Source: Acidimicrobiales bacterium
Lineage (GTDB): Bacteria; Actinomycetota; Acidimicrobiia; Acidimicrobiales; Aldehydirespiratoraceae
Assembly: GCA_033344915.1 (NCBI GenBank)
Contig: JAWPML010000001.1
Coordinates: forward strand, 4,234,263 to 4,298,262
Direction: 5' to 3'
Length of the DNA stretch: 64,000 nucleotides
Shown: one piece after another, positions 36,006-63,178 of the stretch
Layout of the letters: every line of letters begins with the position of its first letter
How positions within the stretch are numbered: the stretch's first letter is position 1
Translations under genes and position numbers: made by a program
Notes under the pieces: generated by a model
The model's input: only the letters and a program-made list of their open reading frames with translations
Databases searched by the model: none
What the model was told of the DNA's origin: nothing

Positions 36006-36084
36006 TCGAACCCCGGCCGGTCTTCCTCCTTGCCGCGAGTGAGGAGTCGGCTATCTTGACTTGTACCGCCGACGGGAGTGGACC

Positions 36085-36906
36085 GTGACCGTCCAGTTGA
36101 TCACAGCGACCATGACGCTCCTACTGCTACCACGTCTCGCGCGGCGTGCAGGTGCGGCGGGAACCACGGTGCGACTGATGTCGGTCTGGGCGCTGATGCT
36201 TGGCGGCTTCCTCGCCGTCGTGACCCTGATGGCGTGTGCCAATGCGCTTCGGGGCGACTCCGGAGCCGGGGCAGCGCAGCGCCACCTCATTGGCGGCGTA
36301 CCGGCGGTCGGCTGGGTGAGCCTCGCTATGGCCACGTCCGCGCTCGTATCGGCGCCCCGCACAATTGCGTTCGCGGCGAGGAGGCGCCGATGGATCCGAC
36401 GCGAGCTTCACCACCTTCCGCGGCGGCGCATCGACGACATCTCGATCGCGCCCATCGACCGCAGCGATGTGTACGCGATGGCGGTGCCCGGCGACGACGA
36501 GTGCGTTCTCGTCTCGCAGGGGGCACTGGTCCAGCTGTGCGACGACGAGCTGCGGGCCCTCATTCACCATGAGCAGGCGCACCTGCGGATGGGCCACCAC
36601 CGAGACCTTCTCCTCGCACGCGTCGCGGAGCGTTCGTGCTGGTTCGTGCCCGGAATCCACCGGGCTGCTGCGACGTTGCGCCTCTCGCTCGAGGTCTCGG
36701 CGGACGCAGCGAGTCGGCAACAGCTTGGCGTCGCCCCGATCTCCGGCGCGCTACGTCTCGCAGGGGAACCGTCGGGCTCTCCCCGACGGTTGGCCGTCGA
36801 CGCGTCACGGAGTCGCTATTGGGGCGTACTTGCAATCGCTGTCATGATGGGAGTCTCGCTGTTTGCCATCAGTGCGGAATTCACTTGGTTGATGGGGGGC
36901 CCATGA
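36085..36906 (+). CDS. M56-family (BlaR1-like) membrane metallopeptidase
   Basis: A 273-residue protein with membrane helices at the N-terminus ('LITATMTLLLLPRLARR', 'LMSVWALMLGGFLAVVTLMACA', 'VGWVSLAMATSALVSA') and one at the end. The zinc site is H162-E-Q-A-H166 in 'LIHHEQAHLRMGHH'. Unlike BlaR1/MecR1 it has no extracellular penicillin-binding sensor domain. It is translationally coupled to a BlaI repressor, which it may cleave. GTG start at 36085 with GGGAG upstream. Confidence 0.85.
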   Translation: MTVQLITATMTLLLLPRLARRAGAAGTTVRLMSVWALMLGGFLAVVTLMACANALRGDSGAGAAQRHLIGGVPAVGWVSLAMATSALVSAPRTIAFAARRRRWIRRELHHLPRRRIDDISIAPIDRSDVYAMAVPGDDECVLVSQGALVQLCDDELRALIHHEQAHLRMGHHRDLLLARVAERSCWFVPGIHRAAATLRLSLEVSADAASRQQLGVAPISGALRLAGEPSGSPRRLAVDASRSRYWGVLAIAVMMGVSLFAISAEFTWLMGGP

Positions 36907-37283
36907 CTCGCGGCGCGAGCTCCAGGCGGCGGGGGAGTGGGGAGTTGGAGGCGTTGGTCTTGCGGTCGCTCTGGCGACTCGATTCGTGGGCGACTCCGGC
37001 ACTGGTGCTCGATGCCATCCCCGACCCGTTGGCGCACACCACTGTGGTCACGGTCCTCCGCCGCCTTCACCAGAAGGGGGAGCTCGATCGTCGCGCTGTG
37101 GGGCGGACCCACGAGTACCGGCCACGACTGACGTCGGAAGAACGCACGGCCGGGGCGATGGCCGAGATTCTGCGGGCGGCCGACGATCCGGCACTAGCGC
37201 TCAACCATTTCGTCGCCGGCCTCGATGTCGGCAATCGATCGATCCTGCGCCGCCACCTCAGGTCGCGGCCTCCGGCCAGCTGA
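36903..37283 (+). CDS. BlaI/CopY-family repressor (first copy)
   Basis: A 126-residue winged-helix protein: 'GELEALVLRSLWRLDSWATPALVLDAI' then 'HTTVVTVLRRLHQKGELDRRAVGRTHEYRP', the BlaI recognition helix and wing. The C-terminal half is a short dimerisation region. No CopY-type CxC metal hook is visible. It is expected to bind the TACGACA-type palindromes; the nearest is 35973-36005. ATGA overlap with the peptidase gene. Confidence 0.88.
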   Translation: MTRGASSRRRGSGELEALVLRSLWRLDSWATPALVLDAIPDPLAHTTVVTVLRRLHQKGELDRRAVGRTHEYRPRLTSEERTAGAMAEILRAADDPALALNHFVAGLDVGNRSILRRHLRSRPPAS

Positions 37284-37908: not shown

Positions 37909-38811
37909 TCATGTGCGGCTTCGGGTCGCGCCGACGTCGGGATCGGTCGAGGCGGCGGGCGGCGCGGCCGCGGTGGTCTGGCTGCGGAGCCGGGTGAGCG
38001 CAACCACCGTGGCGATAGCGAGCGCGGCCAACAGGGCCAGCCGTTGGGAGCCGACGGACTGAATGGTCTCGACGAACCAGAGGCGGATGTCCTCTGCGGT
38101 CTCGATCACCGGGTCGGTGTCGAGGTTGCCGTCATAGACGGCGAGTTCCCATCGTCCGTACCAGATGGCGTATGCGCCGGCTGCCACCATGAGGATGCCG
38201 CCGACGCGTGGGGCGATGCGTGAGAGTCGTCGCATGTGGTTGGCCACGGTGCTGTGGGCGAGCGCGGAGGCGACGCTGAGCACCAGGATGATGATGCCCA
38301 TGCCGAGGGCGTAGGCGATGTAGGTGGCCAGTCCCTCGGCGGTGGACTGAGAAAGCGCGGTGCCGGTGACGGCGAGGAATGGTCCGATCGTGCACGACAG
38401 TGACGCGACGGCGTAGGTGATCCCGTAGCCGACCATCACCTTCGGGCTGTTCGCGCCGGTCGAGAACCGTGGCCCGCGGATCGCAAGCGTCGGTTTCCAG
38501 CCCACCGCCATGGCCAACCCGGCAACGACGAGCAGCCCGCCGATGACGATCGTGACCCAGGGGAGCTGGCGCCGGGCCTCTCCCGCGATGCTGTCGATGA
38601 TGAGCCCGACCGAGGCGAACACGACGATGAACCCGACCGAGACCGCGGCGGCGACACCGACCGCACGCAGGATTCGCTGGTCGAGGCGGTCGTGCACCTG
38701 GTCACCGGCAACGAACGCGCCGATGTAGGCGGGGAGCAGCGAGAACCCACACGGGTTGAACGTCGCGACCATGCCTGCCGTGAACGCCAGCGCGATCGGG
38801 CCGCTGATCAT
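37909..38811 (-). CDS. ccdA: CcdA/DsbD-like cytochrome c biogenesis membrane protein
   Basis: A 300-residue protein with about six to seven membrane helices. The paired cysteines of the CcdA family are present: ATFNPCGFSLLPAY (Cys21) and 'SLSCTIGPFLAV'. It carries electrons from cytoplasmic thioredoxin across the membrane. The start at 38811 has AGAGG 8 bases upstream. It is followed by the redoxin Sec candidate, and lies behind the BlaI-type operator at 38839. Confidence 0.9.
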   Translation of the reverse strand: MISGPIALAFTAGMVATFNPCGFSLLPAYIGAFVAGDQVHDRLDQRILRAVGVAAAVSVGFIVVFASVGLIIDSIAGEARRQLPWVTIVIGGLLVVAGLAMAVGWKPTLAIRGPRFSTGANSPKVMVGYGITYAVASLSCTIGPFLAVTGTALSQSTAEGLATYIAYALGMGIIILVLSVASALAHSTVANHMRRLSRIAPRVGGILMVAAGAYAIWYGRWELAVYDGNLDTDPVIETAEDIRLWFVETIQSVGSQRLALLAALAIATVVALTRLRSQTTAAAPPAASTDPDVGATRSRT

Positions 38812-38838
38812 CGAGGTGACCTCTGCACCCGGCAAGAC

Positions 38839-38855
38839 TACGACAAACTGTCGTA
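38839..38855. promoter_or_regulatory. BlaI/CopY-type operator between ccdA and a TlpA gene
   Basis: TACGACA-AAC-TGTCGTA is a perfect dyad. It ends directly before the ATG of the plus-strand TlpA gene at 38856, leaving no room for a ribosome site, and lies 28 bases before the ccdA start on the other strand. It could control both directions. Confidence 0.82.
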
Positions 38856-39422
38856 ATGACGAGCGCGACCCCCGACGGCGAGGCCGAGAACCGATTGACG
38901 ACGCGACGGCTTGCGGTGGTCGCGATCGTCGTCGCGATCGCGGCGTGGGCGGGCTGGACCGCGCTGCGTGAACCCGATCTGCCCGACTTCGTCGCGTCGG
39001 GCGACCCCATGGAGCTGCCAGCCGACGGTTCCTTCCCGTCGGTGGGCCTCGATGAATTCGAGGCGATCCTTGTCGGCCAGCGAGGCCGACCGGTGGTGGT
39101 CAACATCTGGGCGTCATGGTGCGCGCCATGCCGAACTGAAATGCCATTGCTGCAGTCGGCCGCCGACACCTACGCGGGTGAAGCCGTGATCCTGGGGATC
39201 GCGTCCAACGACGACCCCGACGCGGCACAGGACTTCCTCCGAGAGCTCGGGCTCAGCTACCCGAACGTCTACGACACGACCGGCGAGATCCGAGTCGCCC
39301 TGGGTCTGACCGCCTACCCCACCACCTATGTCTTCGACGCCGACGGAACCATTCGCGCCCGGGTCGACGGCGGTATCTCCGAACAGCGGCTCGCCGGCTT
39401 GATCGAGGATGCGCTCGGGTGA
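38856..39422 (+). CDS. TlpA-family thioredoxin-like protein
   Basis: A 188-residue protein with an N-terminal membrane anchor ('LAVVAIVVAIAAWAGWTAL') and a TlpA fold. The active site IWASWCAPC has ordinary Cys89 and Cys92; the cis-Pro loop reads 'LTAYPTTYVFDADG'. The ATG follows the operator palindrome immediately, so the mRNA may be leaderless. Overlaps the next gene by four bases. Role: thiol reduction outside the cytoplasm, paired with CcdA. Confidence 0.9.
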   Translation: MTSATPDGEAENRLTTRRLAVVAIVVAIAAWAGWTALREPDLPDFVASGDPMELPADGSFPSVGLDEFEAILVGQRGRPVVVNIWASWCAPCRTEMPLLQSAADTYAGEAVILGIASNDDPDAAQDFLRELGLSYPNVYDTTGEIRVALGLTAYPTTYVFDADGTIRARVDGGISEQRLAGLIEDALG

Positions 39423-49929: not shown

Positions 49930-50289
49930 ATGACTCTCAGACGTCGCGCGATGGGCGCGCTCGAAGAGCACGTGATGGACTACCTGTGGGCAGTCGACGC
50001 TCCCGCGTCAGCGGCGGATGTGCAGCACGCCGTTGCTCCTGAACTCGCCTACACCACGATGACGACCGTGCTCACACGACTGGTGGACAAGGGCCGGTTG
50101 GAGCGCGCTCGTGTCGGACGCTCGTTCGTCTACTCGCCGGTGAGGTCGGAGGCAGAACACCGGGCCGCGACGATGACCGACACACTCGGAGCGGCCGTCG
50201 ATCGCACCGCGGTGCTGAGCAGGTTCATCGACTCCCTCGCGACGGACGACGTTGATGTCTTGCGCCGAATCCTGGACGAGGACCACTAA
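49930..50289 (+). CDS. BlaI/CopY-family repressor (second copy)
   Basis: A 119-residue winged-helix protein: 'LEEHVMDYLWAVDAPASAADVQHAV' and 'AYTTMTTVLTRLVDKGRLERARVGRSFVYSPV' are the BlaI helix and wing. It is closer to canonical BlaI than the first copy. The stop TAA is immediately followed by the GTG of an M56 peptidase gene. Expected to bind the TACGACA-type dyads. Confidence 0.9.
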   Translation: MTLRRRAMGALEEHVMDYLWAVDAPASAADVQHAVAPELAYTTMTTVLTRLVDKGRLERARVGRSFVYSPVRSEAEHRAATMTDTLGAAVDRTAVLSRFIDSLATDDVDVLRRILDEDH

Positions 50290-51171
50290 GTGTCGGGGGC
50301 GCTCGTCCTGCCGACACTGGTCGCCGGAACCGGTGGGATCGTCGCCGGCCTGATCCGATGGCCCGTACGGCCGATGCTGGCGGTCAGACTGCTGACCATG
50401 GTGGCCGTTGTCGTATCGGTGACCGTCATGGGCGTGCTGGTCCTCGTTGCCGCGGGGTTTGCGGCTCGCGTGTCGCTGCTGGCTCCGGTTCTCTCATCGT
50501 GCCCGGTCATCCCGGACCACCACGAGATGGGTTACTTCGAGGGAATGTCGGCATTGATTCTGCTCCCTGCTGGACTTCTCCGGGCTCTCATGGTGCGGCG
50601 GCGCTGGCGTCGCGCCGTCAGTTCTGCCGACGGTCGCCGGTTCCGCATCGTCGACGATGCCGAGTTCATTGCGTTCGCGGTCCCAGGCGATCCGGGCTGT
50701 GTGGTCGTTTCGCGCGGACTGCTCGATCGGCTCGAGCCCCGAGAGCGAAAGGTCGTCTTCGCCCACGAGCGAGCTCACCTTCGGCTCGGCCACCACCGGT
50801 ACCTGTACGCCAGCGAGCTCGCGGCGGCGCTGGTCCCGTTCCTCATTCCGCTCGCGGCACAGATACGTTTGGCGACTGAGCGAAGTGCCGACGAAGCCGC
50901 CGTCGATGCCCTCGAGGGCGATCGGCGGCTTGTCGCCCGTGCCCTCGCCCGGGTCGCACTCAGCCGTCCGAGTCATGACCGGCTCGTCGCTGCGTTCGGC
51001 GGAAGTTCGGTACCGCTGAGGGTGCAGGCGCTCATCGGGCCACCGCGGCACCCATCACTGGGGATCGTTGCGGCAGTGGCAGTGGCGACAGTAGCCATCG
51101 CCGCGGCGGTTGCAGGCGTCGTCCAGCTCCACCACTTCGCGGAGTTCGTCGGCCACCTCTGCGGGTTCTGA
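50290..51171 (+). CDS. M56-family (BlaR1-like) membrane metallopeptidase (second copy)
   Basis: A 293-residue protein with N-terminal helices, the zinc site H159-E-R-A-H163 ('VVFAHERAHLRLGHH') with a downstream 'ATERSADEAAVDAL' Glu block, and a C-terminal helix. No sensor domain, as in the first copy. Order (blaI first, peptidase second) is opposite to the first pair. Proposed to relieve BlaI repression; the inducing signal is unknown, perhaps copper or envelope stress. Confidence 0.87.
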   Translation: MSGALVLPTLVAGTGGIVAGLIRWPVRPMLAVRLLTMVAVVVSVTVMGVLVLVAAGFAARVSLLAPVLSSCPVIPDHHEMGYFEGMSALILLPAGLLRALMVRRRWRRAVSSADGRRFRIVDDAEFIAFAVPGDPGCVVVSRGLLDRLEPRERKVVFAHERAHLRLGHHRYLYASELAAALVPFLIPLAAQIRLATERSADEAAVDALEGDRRLVARALARVALSRPSHDRLVAAFGGSSVPLRVQALIGPPRHPSLGIVAAVAVATVAIAAAVAGVVQLHHFAEFVGHLCGF

Positions 51172-54712: not shown

Positions 54713-55369
54713 TCAGTTCCCGAACTGGCCAGCGCAGGTCCGGCTACTCGATCCGGTGAAGTCGGGCACCGGTCGCGCTTCGGCTACCTCGACCGAGTCG
54801 GCCGGTCCGTTGCTCGCGATGTCGTCGATGAGCCAGTCCATTTCGGCGATCTCACGACGCTGGGCTTCGATGATCTCGACCGCCAACTCGCAGACCCGCA
54901 GATCCTCGAGCTCTGAACGTTCGCTCGTGAGAATCGCGATCGAGTGGTGGGGAATCATCGCTCGCATGTACGACTGGTCCTGCACGGTCTCCTGACTCCG
55001 GACCAGCCACAGAGCCCCGGCGAAGACCGCGATCGACGCCAAGACGATACCGATGTTGATTCTCGCGTCCTTGAACATCGACAACATGAATCCGAGCATG
55101 ATCACCGCCATTGCGGCGCCCATCACGAAGGCCATGAAGAAGCGGGTCTCGCTCCAGCGGACGTGGTCCCATGCGTAAGTGTTCAGATACATCAGAGCGA
55201 ACATCACTGCAGTCGACGTGGCGATCATCGCTCCGAAGCGCCAATAGCTCACGTGCACCCCAGATCCGGACTGCGCCGATTCGTTTTCCTCGGTATCGGC
55301 GCGTCGCTCGGCCGCGGCAGGTTGATTGTCGTCTCCGAAACGGGGCTGACCGTCGCTGGCTACGTCCAT
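54713..55369 (-). CDS. DUF305 family membrane protein (second copy)
   Basis: A 218-residue protein, paralogous to 9561-10193 throughout: three helices ('FGAMIATSTAVMFALMYLNTYAWDHVRWSET' is almost the same) and the ferritin-like block 'YMRAMIPHHSIAILTSE'. The C-terminus differs and ends with a Cys. It lies 55 bases behind a BlaI-type operator, whereas the other copy sits in the CsoR/MerR copper block, so the two are probably controlled separately. Confidence 0.85.
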   Translation of the reverse strand: MDVASDGQPRFGDDNQPAAAERRADTEENESAQSGSGVHVSYWRFGAMIATSTAVMFALMYLNTYAWDHVRWSETRFFMAFVMGAAMAVIMLGFMLSMFKDARINIGIVLASIAVFAGALWLVRSQETVQDQSYMRAMIPHHSIAILTSERSELEDLRVCELAVEIIEAQRREIAEMDWLIDDIASNGPADSVEVAEARPVPDFTGSSSRTCAGQFGN

Positions 55370-55490: not shown

Positions 55491-56339
55491 TCAGACGGGG
55501 AAGAGGTCTTCGAATGTGTTGGAAAAGATCGAGAGGAGGACGAACCAGGTTCCAACGATGAGGAGGACCCAGCCTCCCCAGCGTTTGATGGTGGGTGTGG
55601 CGGCGCCGAGTCGCTCGACGGTGGCTACTTGGCTGATGGACACGGCGACCGCGGCGCCGAGGATGAGGATCACGAGGGTGGCGGCCGCGACGACGTAGGC
55701 GAGCAGGGCGGCGTCGAACCCACCGGCCGAGAGCGCTTGGACGGCCAGACCGGCCGTGATGGGACCCGTTCAACCGAACCCGGCAGCAAGATACGCGAAC
55801 CCGAACACGAAGAATCCGGCGACCGGGCGTCGGCGCCGCAACGCCGCTTGTCGGCCGAGCAGGCGGTGAACAGCAGGTTCGAACCGGCGGAGGTTCGCTC
55901 TGATGATGCCGATCTGGATGAGGCCGAAGATGATCAGGCCCCCACCGACAACACCACGCAACGTTCGCCCAGCCAACGAGTCGAACGTGACCGAACTAGC
56001 CAGTCCGGCGCCACCGGCGGCGATGACCAGACCCAGCATGATCACGAAGGTCGCAGCGCCGCCGGCGATCCAGATGGCCCGTCCGACGGCGCGGCGGACC
56101 CGGACCGACCCGGGGTCGCCTGGTCGGCTCTCTCTGATCAGCAGGGTGGCGAGGAGCGGGAACGAGCAGGGCGAGAAGAATGATGCGACACCGGCGGCCG
56201 CCGCGAGGCCGACCAGGCCGATGCCGCTTCCTCTCGGGAGGTCGAAGCGGGGGTAGGCGACATAGCCGACGAACCCGGCCAACCCGACGGCGACGATGGC
56301 GAGCACGAGCAGTGAGTAGCGGATCGGAGATCTGTCCAT
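55491..56339 (-). CDS. CcdA/DsbD-like membrane protein, candidate selenoprotein (UGA at codon 190)
   Basis: Reading through one TGA (55772-55770) gives a 282-residue protein with about seven helices. The first redox Cys is Cys58 (FFSPCSFPLL). The second falls in 'FGFAYLAAGFG-U-TGPITAGLAVQAL', where CcdA homologues have Cys in GCTGP. The protein continues normally for two more helices. A hairpin with GGUCU in its loop follows. ATG at 56339 lies 8 bases from a MerR-type -10, so the mRNA is probably leaderless. It should move reducing power across the membrane. Confidence 0.83.
55741..55757 (-). promoter_or_regulatory. SECIS-like hairpin after the CcdA-like UGA
   Basis: In the mRNA, ACGGCC-GGUCU-GGCCGU forms a perfect six-base-pair stem. 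The loop bases lie 22-26 nucleotides from the U of the UGA. By recollection the E. coli fdhF SECIS has GGUCU at the same distance. This is the strongest single sign of selenocysteine decoding in the window. Confidence 0.75.
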
Positions 56340-56346
56340 GGGGCCA

Positions 56347-56377
56347 GCTTGCACCCCGCACCCAGGTGCCGGGTCAA
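56347..56377 (-). promoter_or_regulatory. MerR-type promoter/operator upstream of the CcdA-like gene
   Basis: The minus strand has -35 TTGACC (56377-56372), a 19-base spacer and a -10-like GCAAGC (56352-56347). The spacer holds the dyad ACCCGGCACC-TG-GGTGCGGGGT (one mismatch), of the kind bound by PbrR/ZntR/CadR regulators. The divergent MerR gene at 56404 is the obvious regulator. Confidence 0.7.
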
Positions 56378-56403: not shown

Positions 56404-56784
56404 ATGTGGATCAGCGAACTGGCAGAACATGCAGGTGTCGCGGCTCGGACTGTTCGGTTCTATGAAGAGCAGGGCCTGCTGACGAAACCCGAACGAACGC
56501 ACGCGGGCTACCGAGACTACGACGACGCAACGGTCGAGCGACTGCTGTTCATCAAGTCGGCCAAGTCGCTCGGGCTCACGCTCTTCGATATCGGTCGGGT
56601 GTTGGAGTTGGCCGACACCGACGAACGGCCATGCGGGCGCGTCGAAGCCATGGTCGACGCCAAGGTTGCCGAGATCGACCAGCGGATCGTGGAACTGCAA
56701 GTACTGCGGGCGCGGCTGTGCTCGCTGGATGCATCGCAGGGCGGCGAGGCGTCCGTCTGTCCGATCATCGAGCACGCGAGATGA
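56404..56784 (+). CDS. MerR-family metal-responsive regulator
   Basis: A 126-residue protein: '[39 protein letters not shown]' winged helix, a coiled-coil dimerisation helix ('[23 protein letters not shown]') and Cys in '[10 protein letters not shown]' and 'EASVCPIIE', spaced like metal ligands of the MerR/PbrR group. It is divergent from the CcdA-like gene, whose promoter has a fitting dyad. Confidence 0.88.
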
Positions 56785-57157: not shown

Positions 57158-57294
57158 ACGCCGACGGGCCGGGGCTACCCAGCGGACCTCGATTGGACGA
57201 GGACGGGCGCCGGATCGTCGCGTCGACGTTCCTATTCGAACAGACCGCGCTCGCTTGCACGCTTGTCAGAGCATCGAGCCGAGGTCGGCGGTGA
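57154..57294 (+). CDS. Short frame coupled to ynfA (doubtful)
   Basis: A 46-codon frame with an ATGA overlap to ynfA ([38 protein letters not shown]...). It runs convergently into the end of the reductase gene. It may be the stump of a longer lost gene. No family is recognised. Confidence 0.3.
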
Positions 57295-58618
57295 CAGTGG
57301 GGTAGGCGGCGGTCATGGATTTGAGTTGGCGGGTGGTGAGGCCGAGTTTCATGGCGAGGGCGCAGAAGTTGATGAGTTCGCCGTACTCGGGTCCGAACAT
57401 GTGAGCGCCGACGATGGTGTCGGTGGTCTTGTCGACGAGGATCTTGACCGCAGCGGCGGTTTCGCCGATCCGGTAGTTCGAGTACCAGCCGCTGGTATCG
57501 GAATAGCGGACGTCGAGGTCGATTCCCTCGGCGCTGGCGTCTGCCTCGAGGAGGCCAACGCGGGCGAGTTCGGGGATCGTGAACACGGCGGTGGGGACGC
57601 CGTTGTAGTCGGGCACCACGGCGGAGTCCGTGAGCATGTTCGACGCGGCGACCTTGCCTTCGAACACAGCGACCGGCGTGAGCGCCATGCCGGGAGAGTC
57701 GGCGGCATCGCCGCCGGCGTACACAGCTGGGTTGGTGGTGCTCTGGAGGTGGCCGGCAACGTCCACACCCTTTTCGCCGCAGGCCACGCCGGCCGCGTCG
57801 AGGCCCAGTCGGGACAGCTGCGGGATCCGGCCGGCGCCGTGGACAACGAGGTCGGTCTCGATGGTGGTCTCGGTTCCGGCTCGTTCGACGGTGACTCTCA
57901 AACCTGACGGTTGAGGCTCGATCGCGGTGACGACGCTCTCGCGTTGGACATTGATGCCGACCTCGGCGCCCCGGGTGATGAGGAGCTCGACGAGGTCGGG
58001 GTCGAACCCTTTGAGCGGTCTGTCGCCGCGGTCGACGATGACGGGGCGGCTGCCGGCACGGGCGGCGATGTGAGCGAACTCGAACGAGATGAAGCCGCCG
58101 CCGACGAAGAGGATGCGGGCGGGGAGTTCCTCGAGGTTCAAAAAGTCGGTGCTGTCGATGAGTTGATCGGCGCCGGGGAATCCCAGTGGTTTGGGTCGGG
58201 CGCCGGTGGCGATCATGAAATGTGACGACTCGTGCGCTGCGCCGTCGATGTCGACGAAGTTGGTGCCGGTGAAGGTGGCGGTGCCGTGGATGGTCTCCAC
58301 GCCGTTGCCGGTAAGGCTCCGCTCCATGTTCTGGGGGACGGGGTCGGTGAAGCCGCGTTTGTGTTTCATGAGGTCGGCCCAGTTGATCGACAGGCCGTCG
58401 TCGTCGATGCCTCTGCCCTGCATCAGTCGGGCGCTGTCGATGAGCTCGGCGCCGCGTCGCAGGATCTTCTTGGGGTCACAGCCCCGGAGGGCGCAGGTGC
58501 CGCCGTAGGGGAGTTCGTCGACGATGGCGACTCGCCAGCCTTTCGAGGCGCATTTCTTGGCGGCCTCGACGCCGGCCATGCCCGCGCCGATCACGATCAG
58601 GTCATAGGGAGTGGTCAT
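57266..58618 (-). CDS. MerA-like FAD/NAD(P)-dependent disulfide oxidoreductase
   Basis: A 450-residue protein of the class I pyridine nucleotide-disulfide family. FAD motif VIGAGMAGVEAAKKCA; redox Cys42 and Cys47 in GGTCALRGCDPKK (a five-residue interval as in MerA/Lpd, CxxxxC); NAD(P) motif 'LFVGGGFISFEFAHI'; 'GGDAADSPGMALTPVA' for FAD. It lacks the N-terminal HMA domain and the C-terminal Cys pair of mercuric reductase, so mercury reduction is not certain; a related disulfide or metal reductase is equally possible. Third gene of the mer-like operon. Confidence 0.82.
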   Translation of the reverse strand: MTTPYDLIVIGAGMAGVEAAKKCASKGWRVAIVDELPYGGTCALRGCDPKKILRRGAELIDSARLMQGRGIDDDGLSINWADLMKHKRGFTDPVPQNMERSLTGNGVETIHGTATFTGTNFVDIDGAAHESSHFMIATGARPKPLGFPGADQLIDSTDFLNLEELPARILFVGGGFISFEFAHIAARAGSRPVIVDRGDRPLKGFDPDLVELLITRGAEVGINVQRESVVTAIEPQPSGLRVTVERAGTETTIETDLVVHGAGRIPQLSRLGLDAAGVACGEKGVDVAGHLQSTTNPAVYAGGDAADSPGMALTPVAVFEGKVAASNMLTDSAVVPDYNGVPTAVFTIPELARVGLLEADASAEGIDLDVRYSDTSGWYSNYRIGETAAAVKILVDKTTDTIVGAHMFGPEYGELINFCALAMKLGLTTRQLKSMTAAYPTVTADLGSML

Positions 58619-58878
58619 GGCAGGGTCTTTCGGTCAGAAGCAATGGATTCTTGGCTGTCAGCGCTCGCACGAGGCACGGCGCGGCTGCGCTGCTGCGAGC
58701 GGCCGAGCCCGACCGCGGCGACGGCGAGGCCGGCGATGATCAGAAGCCAACTGCCAAGGCCGGCGCCGGAGAGAGCTCCGAGAATGCCGGCCGACAACAA
58801 CAGCGGTATTCCGCAGCAGACACCGAGCCCGACGGCGCCAAGGGCAACAAGGCTCGCAGAGCTTTCTCTCTCAGCCAC
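58615..58878 (-). CDS. MerT-like small membrane protein
   Basis: An 87-residue protein with two helices; vicinal Cys21-Cys22 in 'GLGVCCGIPLLLSAGILG' resembles the first helix of MerT and related mercury transporters. The tail is basic. GTG start; it overlaps the upstream gene by eight bases and the reductase by four. Probably a metal transporter or thiol relay; substrate inferred from context only. Confidence 0.72.
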   Translation of the reverse strand: MAERESSASLVALGAVGLGVCCGIPLLLSAGILGALSGAGLGSWLLIIAGLAVAAVGLGRSQQRSRAVPRASADSQESIASDRKTLP

Positions 58879-59170
58879 GACACAACACTTCGCGCAGTTG
58901 TTCGATCGTCGGCGCGCCGGCCGTGCCGTCGGGCGTTTGGTACACCCGGCACGACAACCCGACCGGTGCGTCGGCGTCGGCGAAGATGTCGAGGCCGTCG
59001 ACGAGGATGCTGGGTGATCCGCGGAACTGGGTCTCCTCGGCTGCCTCGGGGGTGTCGACGATCCGTCGCGTGATGTGAAGATCGCGCCGTTCGGCCGCCA
59101 GGGTGCGTAGGTGGGCATCGGCTTCGAGCCAGTTCGGGCAGTCGTCGAAGTAGAGCAGTGTCACGTCCAT
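58871..59170 (-). CDS. Small thioredoxin-like protein of a mer-type operon
   Basis: A 99-residue protein MDVTLLYFDDCPNWLEAD with a single-Cys active-site (FDDCPNW, Cys11), 'ETQFRGSPSILVDGLDIFADAD' containing the cis-Pro, and 'LSCRVYQTPDG'. This is the thioredoxin-like family found near mercury and alkylmercury genes. The ATG lies 8 bases from the -10, so translation is leaderless. A frameshifted paralogue is at 62826-63178. Confidence 0.8.
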   Translation of the reverse strand: MDVTLLYFDDCPNWLEADAHLRTLAAERRDLHITRRIVDTPEAAEETQFRGSPSILVDGLDIFADADAPVGLSCRVYQTPDGTAGAPTIEQLREVLCRG

Positions 59171-59224: not shown

Positions 59225-59665
59225 ATGTTGATCGGTGAGTTCTCGGACGCACTCGGGGTCCCTACCCAGACAGTCAGGTTCTACGAACGGCGTGGCTTGC
59301 TACCGCGCCCGGAGCGGGCGCCCAACGGTTACCGGCTCTACGACGAAGTCGCGCTCCAGCGCGGCCGTTTCATCAGATCGGCCCAGGCGGCAGGGCTGAC
59401 ACTGGCTGAGATCGGAAGCATCATCGACATCCGCAGCGATGGGGCTGCGCCGTGCACCCATGTCGGTGCGCTGCTCGAAGCGAAACTGGCCGAGGTGCGG
59501 GAACGCCAACGGCAACTCGGGGCACTCGAAGGCGAGCTTGAGCACTTGTTGGAGCGCAGCGAGGTCCTCGACCCCGCCGACTGTGACAACGACGATGTCT
59601 GCCACATCCTCCATGCGGGAATCGGTCTCCCGTCACCGGGTGTTGCCGGGAAGTCACAGCCATGA
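59225..59665 (+). CDS. MerR-family regulator of the mer-like operon
   Basis: A 146-residue protein: winged helix 'IGEFSDALGVPTQTVRFYERRGLLPRPERAPNGYRLY', dimerisation helix ('LLEAKLAEVRERQRQLGALEGELEHLLERSE') and metal-loop Cys residues in 'GAAPCTHVGALL', 'DPADCDNDDVC' and 'HILHAG'. Spacing fits Hg(II)/Pb/Cd-type sensors. GTGAGG-ATG start, divergent from its probable target operon. Confidence 0.9.
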   Translation: MLIGEFSDALGVPTQTVRFYERRGLLPRPERAPNGYRLYDEVALQRGRFIRSAQAAGLTLAEIGSIIDIRSDGAAPCTHVGALLEAKLAEVRERQRQLGALEGELEHLLERSEVLDPADCDNDDVCHILHAGIGLPSPGVAGKSQP

Positions 59666-59945: not shown

Positions 59946-60332
59946 ATGCAGGTATCAGAGGTATCCGGGTTGGATGGGTGTGCAGTTGCGGTGACCGATG
60001 CGGCTCGGGTTGCGGTCGTGGCGGAATCGCTGATCGATGTCGACGTGGCGTCTGATCTGGCGGAGTTGTTCCGATTGCTCGGTGACCCCACACGGGTGCG
60101 GATCTTGTATGCGTTGTTGGAGGCGGGCGAGTTGTGTGTGTGCGACCTGGCCGAGGTGGTGGGCACGTCGGATACGAAGGTGTCGCAGGCGCTGCGCTTG
60201 CTGCGTAGCGCGGGGGCGGTTCGGAATCGTCGTGATGGCCGCAATGTCTTCTACCGGCTCGATGACGCCCATGTCCGCATGCTTCTCGACGTCTCGCGTG
60301 AGCACGTCTCCCACAAGCACGGGGGCGAATAG
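59946..60332 (+). CDS. ArsR/SmtB-family metal-responsive repressor
   Basis: A 128-residue protein with the ArsR winged helix. The alpha-3 metal motif ELCVCDLAE gives Cys64 and Cys66, as in ArsR/CadC-type Cd/Pb/As sensors; the recognition helix is 'SDTKVSQALRLLRSAGAVRNRRDGRNVFYRL'. The C-terminal 'REHVSHKHGGE' is His-rich, a possible alpha-5 metal site. Its stop overlaps the CDF exporter start by one base. Repressor of the downstream efflux genes. Confidence 0.92.
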   Translation: MQVSEVSGLDGCAVAVTDAARVAVVAESLIDVDVASDLAELFRLLGDPTRVRILYALLEAGELCVCDLAEVVGTSDTKVSQALRLLRSAGAVRNRRDGRNVFYRLDDAHVRMLLDVSREHVSHKHGGE

Positions 60333-61258
60333 TGGGTGGCGATCACGACCACGGAACCGGGCTGGCTCGCGCGGGCGAACGTCATCGCGGCCGGCTGCTG
60401 GCGGCGTTCGTCATCATCGGCGGGTTCTTCGTCGTCGAGGCGGTTGCCGGGTTTCTGACGAACTCACTCGCGTTGTTGTCCGATGCCGGACACATGCTGA
60501 CTGATGTGATCGGGATCGGTATGGCGCTGGCCGCGATCCAGTTGGCGTCGCGTTTCGAGGCCCGCTCGGCCACAGTCCGGTCGAGCCACACGTTCGGTTT
60601 GTACCGGTTGGAGATCTTGGCGGCGTTTGTCAATGCGCTGCTGCTGTTCGGTGTCGCGATCTGGGTGCTCATCGAGGCCGGCCGCCGGCTCTTCGACGAG
60701 CACGAGGTGCTCGGGGTGCAGATGCTCGTCGTCGCCATCCTCGGCCTCATCGCAAACCTGGTCGCGTTTGCGTTGCTGCGAGAGGGTTCGAAGGAGTCAT
60801 TGAACGTCGAGGGCGCGTACCTCGAGGTGCTCGCCGACACCGTCGGATCGGTCGGCGTCATCATCGCCGCAGTGCTGCTGGAGGTATTCGGTTGGGGCTG
60901 GATCGACCCCGTCATCGGCGCGCTTATCGGACTCTGGATCCTCCCGCGCACCTGGCGCCTCGGACGCCGAGCCGTGCGAGTGCTGCTCCAGGCCGCGCCC
61001 GATCATGTCGACCTCGATGAGCTGGCCGACAGCCTCGAATCGATCGACGGAGTCGTCGATGTCCATGACCTTCACGTGTGGACCTTGACCTCGGAGATGG
61101 ACGCCGGATCCGCCCATCTCGTCACCGTTAGCGGTGTTGAAAGTCATGGGGTGCTCGATCAGGCCCGTCATCTGCTCGAACACGACTTCGGGATCGTCCA
61201 CGGAACGTTCCAGGTCGAGCCTGACAGTCATGTCGGCTGCGAGGAGGTGGCCTGGTGA
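60332..61258 (+). CDS. czcD: Cation-diffusion facilitator (CzcD/ZitB-type efflux protein)
   Basis: A 308-residue CDF exporter with six helices. The zinc-site motif in TM2 is ALLSDAGHMLTD (HxxxD with preceding Asp) and in TM5 'LEVLADTVGSVGVI' supplies the second pair. The C-terminal cytoplasmic domain has 'VHDLHVWTLTSEMDAGSAHL'. His-rich start (GGDHDHGTG). Exports Zn, Cd or Co by proton antiport. Downstream of arsR. Confidence 0.93.
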   Translation: MGGDHDHGTGLARAGERHRGRLLAAFVIIGGFFVVEAVAGFLTNSLALLSDAGHMLTDVIGIGMALAAIQLASRFEARSATVRSSHTFGLYRLEILAAFVNALLLFGVAIWVLIEAGRRLFDEHEVLGVQMLVVAILGLIANLVAFALLREGSKESLNVEGAYLEVLADTVGSVGVIIAAVLLEVFGWGWIDPVIGALIGLWILPRTWRLGRRAVRVLLQAAPDHVDLDELADSLESIDGVVDVHDLHVWTLTSEMDAGSAHLVTVSGVESHGVLDQARHLLEHDFGIVHGTFQVEPDSHVGCEEVAW

Positions 61259-61869
61259 ACACTGCTGCCCTCGTTCTGTTCGGTGTCTGGTTCGTGGTGA
61301 TCTTCGTGGTGCGGTCCTTGGTGCAGAAGCGTGACACCGGTGACTCCGGCATCCGACCGGGAGCGTTCGCTGCGGATGCATCGATAGTGGAACGGGTTGC
61401 GTACGTGTTGTTGCTCGTTGCGTTCGCTGGTGCGGTCGGCGCGCCGATCGCAGCGATGGCCGGTGTGGAGCCCCTGTGGGACAACGATGCGCTGCGGTGG
61501 GTTGGCGTGGTCGTCGCGGTCGCGGGTATCGGTTTGACCTATGCAGCTCAGGTCGGGATGGGGAGCGAGTGGCGGATCGGGATCGACCGCACCGAGGTCA
61601 CCGGCCTGGTGACCTCTGGCGTCTTCGGTCTCGTCCGCAACCCGATCTTCACCGCGATGATCTTCACCGCGGTCGGTTTTGCGGTCATGGTGCCGAACGT
61701 GATCGCTGTCATTGCCGTGGTGTGTTTGGTGGTGGCGATCGAGATGCAGGTGCGCTTCGTCGAAGAGCCGCACCTCCGCCGGCTGCACGGGACTGGATAT
61801 GGGCAGTACGCGGCGGAGGTGGGCCGGTTCGTCCCACTGATCGGCCGCGCCGCGGGGGCTCGTCGATGA
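61255..61869 (+). CDS. Isoprenylcysteine carboxyl methyltransferase-family membrane protein
   Basis: A 204-residue protein with about five helices and a C-terminal 'GLVRNPIFTAMIFTAVGFAVM' plus 'FVEEPHLRRLHGTGYGQYAAEVGRFVP', the ICMT/PEMT-type methyltransferase motif (RNP and EE...Y). Such proteins are frequent beside CDF and cadmium genes in actinomycetes; the methyl acceptor is unknown. GTG start, four-base overlap with both neighbours. Confidence 0.82.
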   Translation: MNTAALVLFGVWFVVIFVVRSLVQKRDTGDSGIRPGAFAADASIVERVAYVLLLVAFAGAVGAPIAAMAGVEPLWDNDALRWVGVVVAVAGIGLTYAAQVGMGSEWRIGIDRTEVTGLVTSGVFGLVRNPIFTAMIFTAVGFAVMVPNVIAVIAVVCLVVAIEMQVRFVEEPHLRRLHGTGYGQYAAEVGRFVPLIGRAAGARR

Positions 61870-62825: not shown

Positions 62826-63178
62826 GTGAAGGTGTCGCTGCTCACTTCGATGATTGTCCGACCTGGCGGACTGCGGCGGACCGCCTGGGCCAACTCGCTG
62901 ACGAGATCCCCGGCTTCGACGTCGAGCGAGTTCTCGTGGATACACCCGAGGCGGCCGAGCGGACCCGTTTCCGGGGTTCGCCCAGCATCCACGTCAACGG
63001 AACTGACCTGTTCGCCGATCCCGAGGCGCCGGTCGGTCTGTCCTGCCGCATCTACCAGACGCCCGATGGAGCAGCCGGGTCACCCACGATCGATCAACTC
63101 CGACGGGCGCTCGAATCAGCCCGTCTTTCGATGACGCCGCCCGGCAGCGGTTGCGTCGACAGGGCTGCCGACGGGTGA
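62826..63178 (+). pseudogene. Mer-type thioredoxin-like gene with a one-base deletion
   Basis: The product begins MKVSLL, then one base is missing at about 62844, after which the frame reads FDDCPTWRTAADRLGQL and continues 'VDTPEAAERTRFRGSPSIHVNGTDLFADPEAPVGLSCRIYQTPDG'. This matches the intact protein at 58871-59170 for its whole length. It is either a decayed duplicate or a sequencing error. Confidence 0.75.

Follow-up and report, generated by a model that had tools for sequence, protein, structure and literature searches.

Can a UGA codon that interrupts an otherwise open frame, at the position of an active-site cysteine of CcdA, be read as selenocysteine (Sec), and what would such a membrane protein do for its host? 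This question is raised by a gene on the minus strand of a 64,000-nucleotide stretch of an Acidimicrobiales genome. This stretch is hereafter called the window, and its positions are used throughout unless a contig is named. A first-pass annotation, made from the letters of the sequence, had described a CcdA homologue with UGA at the catalytic cysteine, followed by a hairpin like that of Escherichia coli fdhF. The features of the gene itself are as follows:

55491 to 56339, minus strand: Sec-CcdA gene, a single frame of 282 residues including the predicted Sec190, with one internal UGA and TGA as final stop
55770 to 55772, minus strand: in-frame UGA, codon 190, predicted selenocysteine, aligned with the active-site Cys in TM4 of CcdA; the codon is UGA at 36 distinct loci of the family, TGC in one further member (L142), and TGC or TGT in 69 of 69 other homologues
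56166 to 56168, minus strand: codon 58, the Cys of FFSPCSFP in TM1, predicted partner of Sec190; invariant in a 35-row alignment and aligned with the SPC Cys of the Thermus CcdA structure 5vkv
55741 to 55757, minus strand: predicted SECIS apical hairpin, a 6-bp stem ACGGCC-GGUCU-GGCCGU with the loop GGUCU at 55747-55751, 18 nt from the UGA as in fdhF
55746 to 55754, minus strand: codons 196-198 (GCC GGT CTG), with suppressed synonymous variation

The in-frame UGA codon and its downstream hairpin

When the coordinates were re-read, the frame proved to be open except for the one TGA at codon 190, just as annotated. The motif around the site is GFG-U-TGP, and the alignment of homologues puts codon 190 on the TM4 active-site Cys of CcdA proteins, in agreement with the position first assigned to it. 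Because TGA is found at the same codon in 35 relatives, it is a genuine codon and not a sequencing slip. In 20 of the 27 relatives aligned with the window gene (Sec-only alignment), the tblastn match starts at residue 1-7. The frame beyond the UGA is under purifying selection: for the pair L054 and L055, pN/pS is 0.226 before the UGA and 0.093 after it, and seven other pairs gave values of 0.00 to 0.30 after the UGA. In addition, the C-terminus is conserved in the family alignments.

The host genome is a single contig of 4.48 Mb, in which selA (384.8 bits, cut-off 267.9), selB (275.7, cut-off 242.25) and selD (359.8, cut-off 125) were all found together with a tRNA-Sec(UCA), which scored 64 bits (gathering threshold 47) and was reported by ARAGORN as tRNA-SeC with anticodon tca. 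The objection anticipated at the outset, namely that the host has no Sec machinery, therefore fails. Since selA is common in the host's order (over cut-off in 132 of 198 relatives of the host), its co-occurrence with the gene within this order is weak evidence. The host selD (G000:C1:1225971-1226897, L020) has an in-frame TGA of its own at codon 11 of the matched stretch, with a GGCGCA-GGTCG-TGCGCC hairpin about 32 nt further on (hairpin and distance read by eye). Judging from these letters, the host SelD itself looks like a selenoprotein.

The hairpin downstream of UGA190 has the sequence originally claimed for it. The distance of 22-26 bases is correct as well when the loop positions are counted from the U of the UGA, which corresponds to 18 nt between the UGA and the loop. 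The comparison with fdhF is also correct: in the fdhF sequence of E. coli K-12, the UGA is codon 140 and GGTCT follows 18 nt later in the same frame. The two hairpins nevertheless stand in different genes and in different flanking sequence, and the bulged U of the fdhF SECIS has no obvious counterpart in the window hairpin.

The window contains 1678 TGA trinucleotides, counting both strands, and this is the sole one to be followed by GGTCT at exactly 18 nt with a stem of at least five pairs, compared with a mean of 0.05 in 40 first-order Markov sequences. If GGTCT with such a stem is allowed at any distance of 16-37 nt, two TGA remain versus a Markov mean of 0.5. The published bSECIS model, as given in the legend of Fig 2 of PMC13188914, comprises a loop of 3-9 nt, an upper stem of 4-16 bp, G in the first two loop positions, a distance of 16-37 nt from the UGA and an MFE of -7.5 or lower. 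The window hairpin fits this model with a loop of 5, a stem of 6, G in first position, 18 nt and -10.5 kcal/mol. This folding energy is no better than that of shuffled sequences (z 0.11); therefore, it was not counted as evidence, and the support for the hairpin rests on its conservation.

The loop starts exactly 18 nt after the UGA in all 36 loci, reading GGTCT in 34 and AGTCT in 2. From the inside outwards, five stem pairs are standard in 36, 36, 36, 35 and 36 of the 36 loci, and the outermost sixth pair in 21. The third-base pair of codons 195 and 199 is GC in 23 loci, UA in 5, CG in 3, GU in 3 and UG in 1, with one failure. In a 31-sequence alignment (30 distinct rows), the covariation score was 0.268 versus 0.131 for shuffled alignments, a value reached by none of 500, and did not exceed 0.054 when the hairpin was slid. 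Two pairs have changes on both sides, a number that was reached by 53 of 500 shuffles; the shuffles of both tests ignore relatedness. RNAalifold recovered the same inner five pairs. For codons 196-198, an alignment of 28 genes shows GCC in 28 of 28 rows, GGT in 27 of 27 Gly codons (the remaining row has AGT) and CTG in 28 of 28; GGT makes up 20% of the Gly codons pooled over these genes. These three codons show the three lowest synonymous diversities among 57 conserved columns. Combined, these comparisons support well a predicted SECIS hairpin of the fdhF type in the Sec-CcdA family.

Members of the family and their kinship with CcdA

A whole-genome search of 198 relatives of the host yielded four genomes, the host included, with a match holding one TGA, and the other matches listed had no internal stop. 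From a scan of GTDB contigs, the best 80 of 85 confirmed loci were used. In these homologues, all family loci that cover codon 190 have TGA, whereas the aligned codon is TGC or TGT in every one of the other 69, which comprise two Thaumarchaeota, L084-L131 and 19 CcdAs from bacteria; a further eight CcdAs from bacteria also have TGC. By E-value, some UGA rows fall below the two Thaumarchaeota, which the tree alone separates from the family. When 396 genomes from the phylum and 395 from the class were searched, with at most the best 6 candidates per genome among the matches listed and with duplicates removed by sequence, at least five UGA loci (L136-L139, L164) and the TGC member L142 were added. 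This gives 36 distinct UGA loci (the window gene and 35 relatives) and one Cys locus. Two more UGA copies (G480:C285 and G475:C27) are not counted among the 36, and three loci that do not cover the site were left out, namely L026 and L143 (C-terminal match only) and L082 (N-terminal match only). The 35-row alignment consists of 28 Sec rows and seven archaeal Cys rows, and the Sec-only alignment of the 28 Sec rows. Outside both stand the partial L025, L071 and L076 with their frames lost elsewhere, and L136-L139, L142 and L164 as later finds; L025, L071 and L078 are outside the tree.

According to their record titles, the UGA members belong to Actinomycetota, Chloroflexota/Thermomicrobiota, Armatimonadota and 'Acidobacteria'. 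The title 'Acidobacteria' is questionable, because L054, which bears it, is nearest to an Acidimicrobiales record. A plasmid collection searched at E 1e-5 and at E 1 contained no relatives, and 18 pattern matches in viral contigs were rejected, none of them being a relative.

In a tree of 66 rows, the Sec family forms one branch of 34 rows (33 Sec rows and L142) with a support of 100/100, and L142 is placed inside a 100/100 subgroup of nine. With the root at the midpoint, two label changes account for the Sec and Cys states, and the simplest reading of the sequences would be a family founded with Sec in which one Sec-to-Cys change took place. L142 (G273:C2:156566-157336), with its TGC, is the only Cys-coding member found in the Sec family. 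It keeps GCCGGTCTGGCC, but the covarying stem pair is broken (C-C), as expected if its hairpin were a relict, decaying SECIS. Both selA and selB score over cut-off in its genome.

Among the distinct UGA-bearing genomes, selA is over cut-off in 32 of 35 (the host, 27 of 30, and 4 of 4 new ones), the genome of L164 being outside this count. Three draft MAGs with UGA, those of L064 (G399, 83% complete), L076 and L078, have neither selA nor selB at cut-off. In the genome of L079, the selA frame (G223:C24:10358-11668) holds one TGA, which could be a sequencing slip, the mark of a decaying gene or an unexpected recoded codon.

The description of the gene as a CcdA homologue held with one correction: by profile, the protein is a remote CcdA/DsbD-like relative, but taken alone, it has no match to any Pfam model at E 1 or to any NCBIfam model. 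FFSPCSFP and position 190 (Cys or Sec) are invariant in the 35-row alignment, and the profile of this alignment finds Thermus CcdA 5vkv in the PDB (E 4.7e-6) with both active-site positions aligned. The Sec-only profile, searched against the PDB, returned no CcdA and missed 5vkv, with flagellins alone at E 0.18 and 0.29. When the Sec-only alignment was compared with 12 Cys-type homologues from archaea, hhalign gave a probability of 100 (E 2e-41); three of these 12 (L088, L086 and L098) pass PF02683, and the nearest ones, L072 and L073, have no match. Within the family, 3 of 28 Sec rows match DsbD_TM (PF02683) with an E of at most 0.1 (best 3.9e-6), and 25 have no match. Since few Sec rows match PF02683, the window protein does not, and the Sec-only profile misses 5vkv, the family is regarded as a remote branch of CcdA.

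The AlphaFold model has a pLDDT of 86.5. Its best PDB match in Foldseek is again 5vkv, with a probability of 1.00 but an E of 0.023 and TM values of 0.39/0.46, and VIA-align (Z 6.1, rank 11) placed CcdA below unrelated helical bundles and did not set it apart. Weak, isolated matches of single Sec rows to unrelated models (ceramidase; MerE, E 0.046) were taken as chance. The family has in common with the CcdA/DsbD TM superfamily the TM1 SPC and TM4 C-x-GP sites, which align in 5vkv with Cys58 and Sec190. It differs in having Sec at TM4, a length of about 280 residues and, in the model, an extra N-terminal helix. At the level of aligned sequences, it is well supported that the site corresponds to the TM4 active-site position, the second of the two in the CcdA fold, and that its predicted partner is Cys58 in TM1.

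Two further models touch the family. That of the aromatic arsenical efflux permease ArsG (NF040495) is weakly matched by 2 of the 28 Sec rows (best E 1.8e-7) and by two archaeal Cys rows (best 1.6e-7), yet its curated cut-off is 200 bits compared with 22 and 31 for the two Cys rows, and its name does not mention selenium. TsoB (NF045694; rhodanese/DsbD fusion-like) is likewise a selenoprotein with a DsbD-like part. Positions 186-390 of its model are weakly matched by 4 of the 35 alignment rows, all four of them archaeal Cys rows, and none of the 28 Sec rows matches it at E 0.1. Unlike Sec-CcdA, TsoB is entered in Table 1 of PMC13188914 as a 572-position fusion with two Sec in UxxxxU.

Could UGA190 be an ordinary stop that leaves a pseudogene or a short protein of 189 residues? 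UGA normally serves as a stop codon and also ends this gene, and the three draft genomes lacking selA and selB at cut-off would also agree with this. However, such a stop is already contradicted by the protein-level constraint and the conserved C-terminus after the UGA, and the same UGA in 36 distinct family loci, the covarying hairpin and the Sec machinery of the host argue against it too, which makes it highly improbable. An open frame alone is silent on the residue that is inserted, so that UGA might be a sense codon read as Trp or Cys by suppression. We give this possibility hardly any credence in view of the tRNA-Sec, selA, selB and selD of the host, the TGC or TGT at the aligned codon of L142 and all 69 other homologues, and a loop of the fdhF type at the exact fdhF distance. 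The signs by which a bacterial selenoprotein gene is recognised are present here, namely a UGA aligned with a conserved Cys, Sec machinery in the host, and UGA and hairpin kept in other Sec-using organisms. In all likelihood, UGA190 is decoded as selenocysteine in a full-length, CcdA-like membrane electron carrier, and the predicted Sec-containing CcdA-like family is very probably real.

Gene neighbourhood and a possible link to metals

The genes and sites around the Sec-CcdA gene in the window are the following:

54713 to 55369, minus strand: DUF305/CopM-like gene, downstream of ccdA on the same strand; CopM 33.6 bits (cut-off 90), PF03713 33 bits (over its cut-off of 27)
56358 to 56377, minus strand: candidate MerR-type operator/promoter, TTGACC followed by the dyad GCACC-TG-GGTGC, between ccdA and the divergent merR; putative function
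56404 to 56784, plus strand: divergent MerR-family regulator adjoining ccdA; Pfam MerR models over cut-off, below all NCBIfam metal-specific cut-offs among the matches listed
57266 to 58618, minus strand: flavoprotein resembling mercuric reductase and glutathione reductase; NF004776 (glutathione reductase) 314.2 bits and TIGR02053 (MerA) 278.7 bits, both below cut-off
58615 to 58875, minus strand: small membrane protein that contains a CCG motif, encoded between the flavoprotein and DF genes; weak CopD match below cut-off
58871 to 59170, minus strand: homologue of the DF-family (seleno)protein in Cys form (FDDCPNW); NF049942 69.2 bits, cut-off 70
59225 to 59665, plus strand: second MerR-family regulator

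The small membrane protein presumably resembles the small Mer transporters. Of 10 loci examined, 9 have TTGAC upstream of ccdA or of the first gene, and in 6 of the 10, a dyad with arms of at least 5 is found beside it. An initial clustering of neighbourhoods was discarded, as it was dominated by shadow ORFs of GC-rich DNA, and targeted tblastn was used instead. By this approach, MerR genes were detected in the flanks of 20 of 36 relatives (the 35 UGA loci and L142, with the window excluded) versus none of the 69 Cys-type loci, a difference that is suggestive only, because the flanks differ in length and because most of the control set comes from archaea (49 of the 69 loci according to their record titles), in which MerR may be less frequent. 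MerA-like or DF genes occur in 9 of the 36 family flanks versus 2 of the 69 Cys-type flanks. These MerR flanks suggest a metal-responsive role for the Sec-CcdA family.

Twenty MerR sequences were compared, namely the two regulators of the window and those of all MerR-flanked loci except L061 and L137 (18 of 20). The first metal-binding Cys column holds Cys in 19 of the 20 sequences, and a C-terminal Cys motif before I/L-rich residues is present in 19 of 20 as well; L052 has no letters there. We take the first of these cysteines to mark sensors of divalent metals rather than CueR. The regulators and the reductase of the window remain below the curated mercury cut-offs, though MerR adjoins the gene and a MerA-like gene is nearby.

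The DF (seleno)protein NF049942 (deep-Sep 2025) is small and by inspection thioredoxin-like, unlike CcdA, and its Cys homologue is a neighbour at 58871-59170. DF genes are present in the flanks of 5 of the 36 relatives, and it is possible that the DF protein is a functional partner of Sec-CcdA. A second DF-like gene lies at 62826-63178 on the plus strand, with its start VKVSLL and its body HFDDCPTW... in different frames (by eye), which could be due either to a frameshift or to an assembly slip.

Further genes of interest lie on both sides. At 59946-61866 on the plus strand, the window has an ArsR regulator, a cation-efflux (CDF) gene and a PEMT/ICMT-type methyltransferase, which gives the entire stretch the look of a metal-resistance cluster. 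The host also has an ordinary CcdA of the Cys type at 37909-38835 (minus strand), beside a divergent TlpA-like thioredoxin at 38856-39422 (plus strand); both names were given by inspection. This CcdA scores 26 bits with PF02683, just under the cut-off of 27.1, and another PF02683 match is found at C1:3223860-3224399. Two gene pairs at 36061-37283 and 49930-51171 resemble, by inspection of their translations, a BlaI-type regulator with an M56-type membrane peptidase. In the Thermomicrobiota loci L061, L063 and L067, MerR precedes the gene and larB/larC-like genes follow it, with a P-type ATPase in L063 and L067 as well.

Proposed mechanism and meaning of the family

SelB and tRNA-Sec would decode UGA190 as Sec, directed by the GGUCU hairpin 18 nt downstream. 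In the finished protein, Cys58 and Sec190 may form a reversible selenenyl-sulfide, which thioredoxin could reduce from the cytosol. CcdA proteins move reducing equivalents via a cysteine pair, and TM1 and TM4 possibly move as an elevator (PMC7329351). A CcdA-like alternating-access motion would carry the Cys58/Sec190 pair across the membrane and deliver electrons or soft metal to or from an extracytoplasmic partner, which might be the DF protein, in loci carrying DF, or a bound soft metal.

Given Sec decoding, the role of the protein is open to several readings. It could be a general thiol-disulfide relay for envelope redox or cytochrome c maturation that handles no metal, in line with the reducing equivalents that CcdA proteins carry (PMC7329351). 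The excess of MerR genes and of MerA-like or DF genes over the Cys-type flanks speaks against such a relay, as does the ordinary Cys-type CcdA which the host already possesses beside its TlpA-like thioredoxin (37909-39422). However, 16 of the 36 relatives have no MerR in the fetched flank, and three Thermomicrobiota loci stand beside the presumed larC-like genes; we regard the general relay as a serious alternative, somewhat short of an even chance. The protein might also itself move a soft metal or an organometal via Cys58/Sec190 to the flavoprotein reductase in the manner of a Mer transporter, the likeliest cargo being Hg(II) or organomercury. MerA-like, DF and MerR neighbours in the window and the ArsG matches of two Sec rows are consistent with this, and Sec has already been predicted in a MerT-type protein, SaoL, HgcA and HgcB, as listed in Table 1 of PMC13188914. 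CcdA-domain proteins of actinomycetes are annotated as 'mercury transporter' in Table 4 of PMC12195606; by description only, they share with our family the CcdA domain, the occurrence in actinobacteria and the mercury annotation, but the description in that table does not mention Sec. Since the glutathione reductase model gives the window flavoprotein a higher score than the MerA model does and neither score reaches its cut-off, MerA-like genes occur in few family flanks, and DUF305/CopM points rather to copper, direct metal transport appears unlikely.

Judged from its gene neighbours, the chances are about even that a MerR-type metal regulator controls the Sec-CcdA gene and that the gene functions in the handling of soft metals, with mercury as the leading candidate. 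More doubtful, and put forward tentatively, is the wider proposal of a Sec-founded membrane-carrier family for the detoxification of soft metals, probably mercury or organometals, in which Cys58/Sec190 would bind the metal or the electrons and be shifted from one side of the membrane to the other, Sec would be ancestral, and the Cys of L142 a late reversion.

The May 2026 catalogue of 119 selenoprotein families lists no CcdA in its Table 1 (PMC13188914), the nearest entry being TsoB. In NCBIfam 20, no model is common to the 28 Sec rows; five models match one or two rows each, and none of these is a selenoprotein family. The terms 'CcdA' and 'DsbD' are absent from the main text of the deep-Sep 2025, ISME 2016, GOS 2008 and Biomolecules 2022 papers (PMC12013277, PMC5029168, PMC2398784 and PMC9312934; term search). 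A full-text literature search for selenoproteins combined with CcdA, DsbD, cytochrome c biogenesis or TsoB gave no title on such a family among those listed; an earlier description in subscription papers, in preprints or in the TsoB paper may exist.

Compared with the table of the May 2026 catalogue and with NCBIfam 20, Sec-CcdA would be a new selenoprotein family. It would belong to the transmembrane electron carriers, which are sparsely represented in that table. Gene callers that treat UGA as a stop are expected to truncate its genes. Since nearly all members are of the Sec type and the single natural Cys variant retains a decaying SECIS, the family would make it possible to test cleanly what a transmembrane relay gains from selenium. 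Furthermore, the family may provide another link between selenium and bacterial metal resistance.
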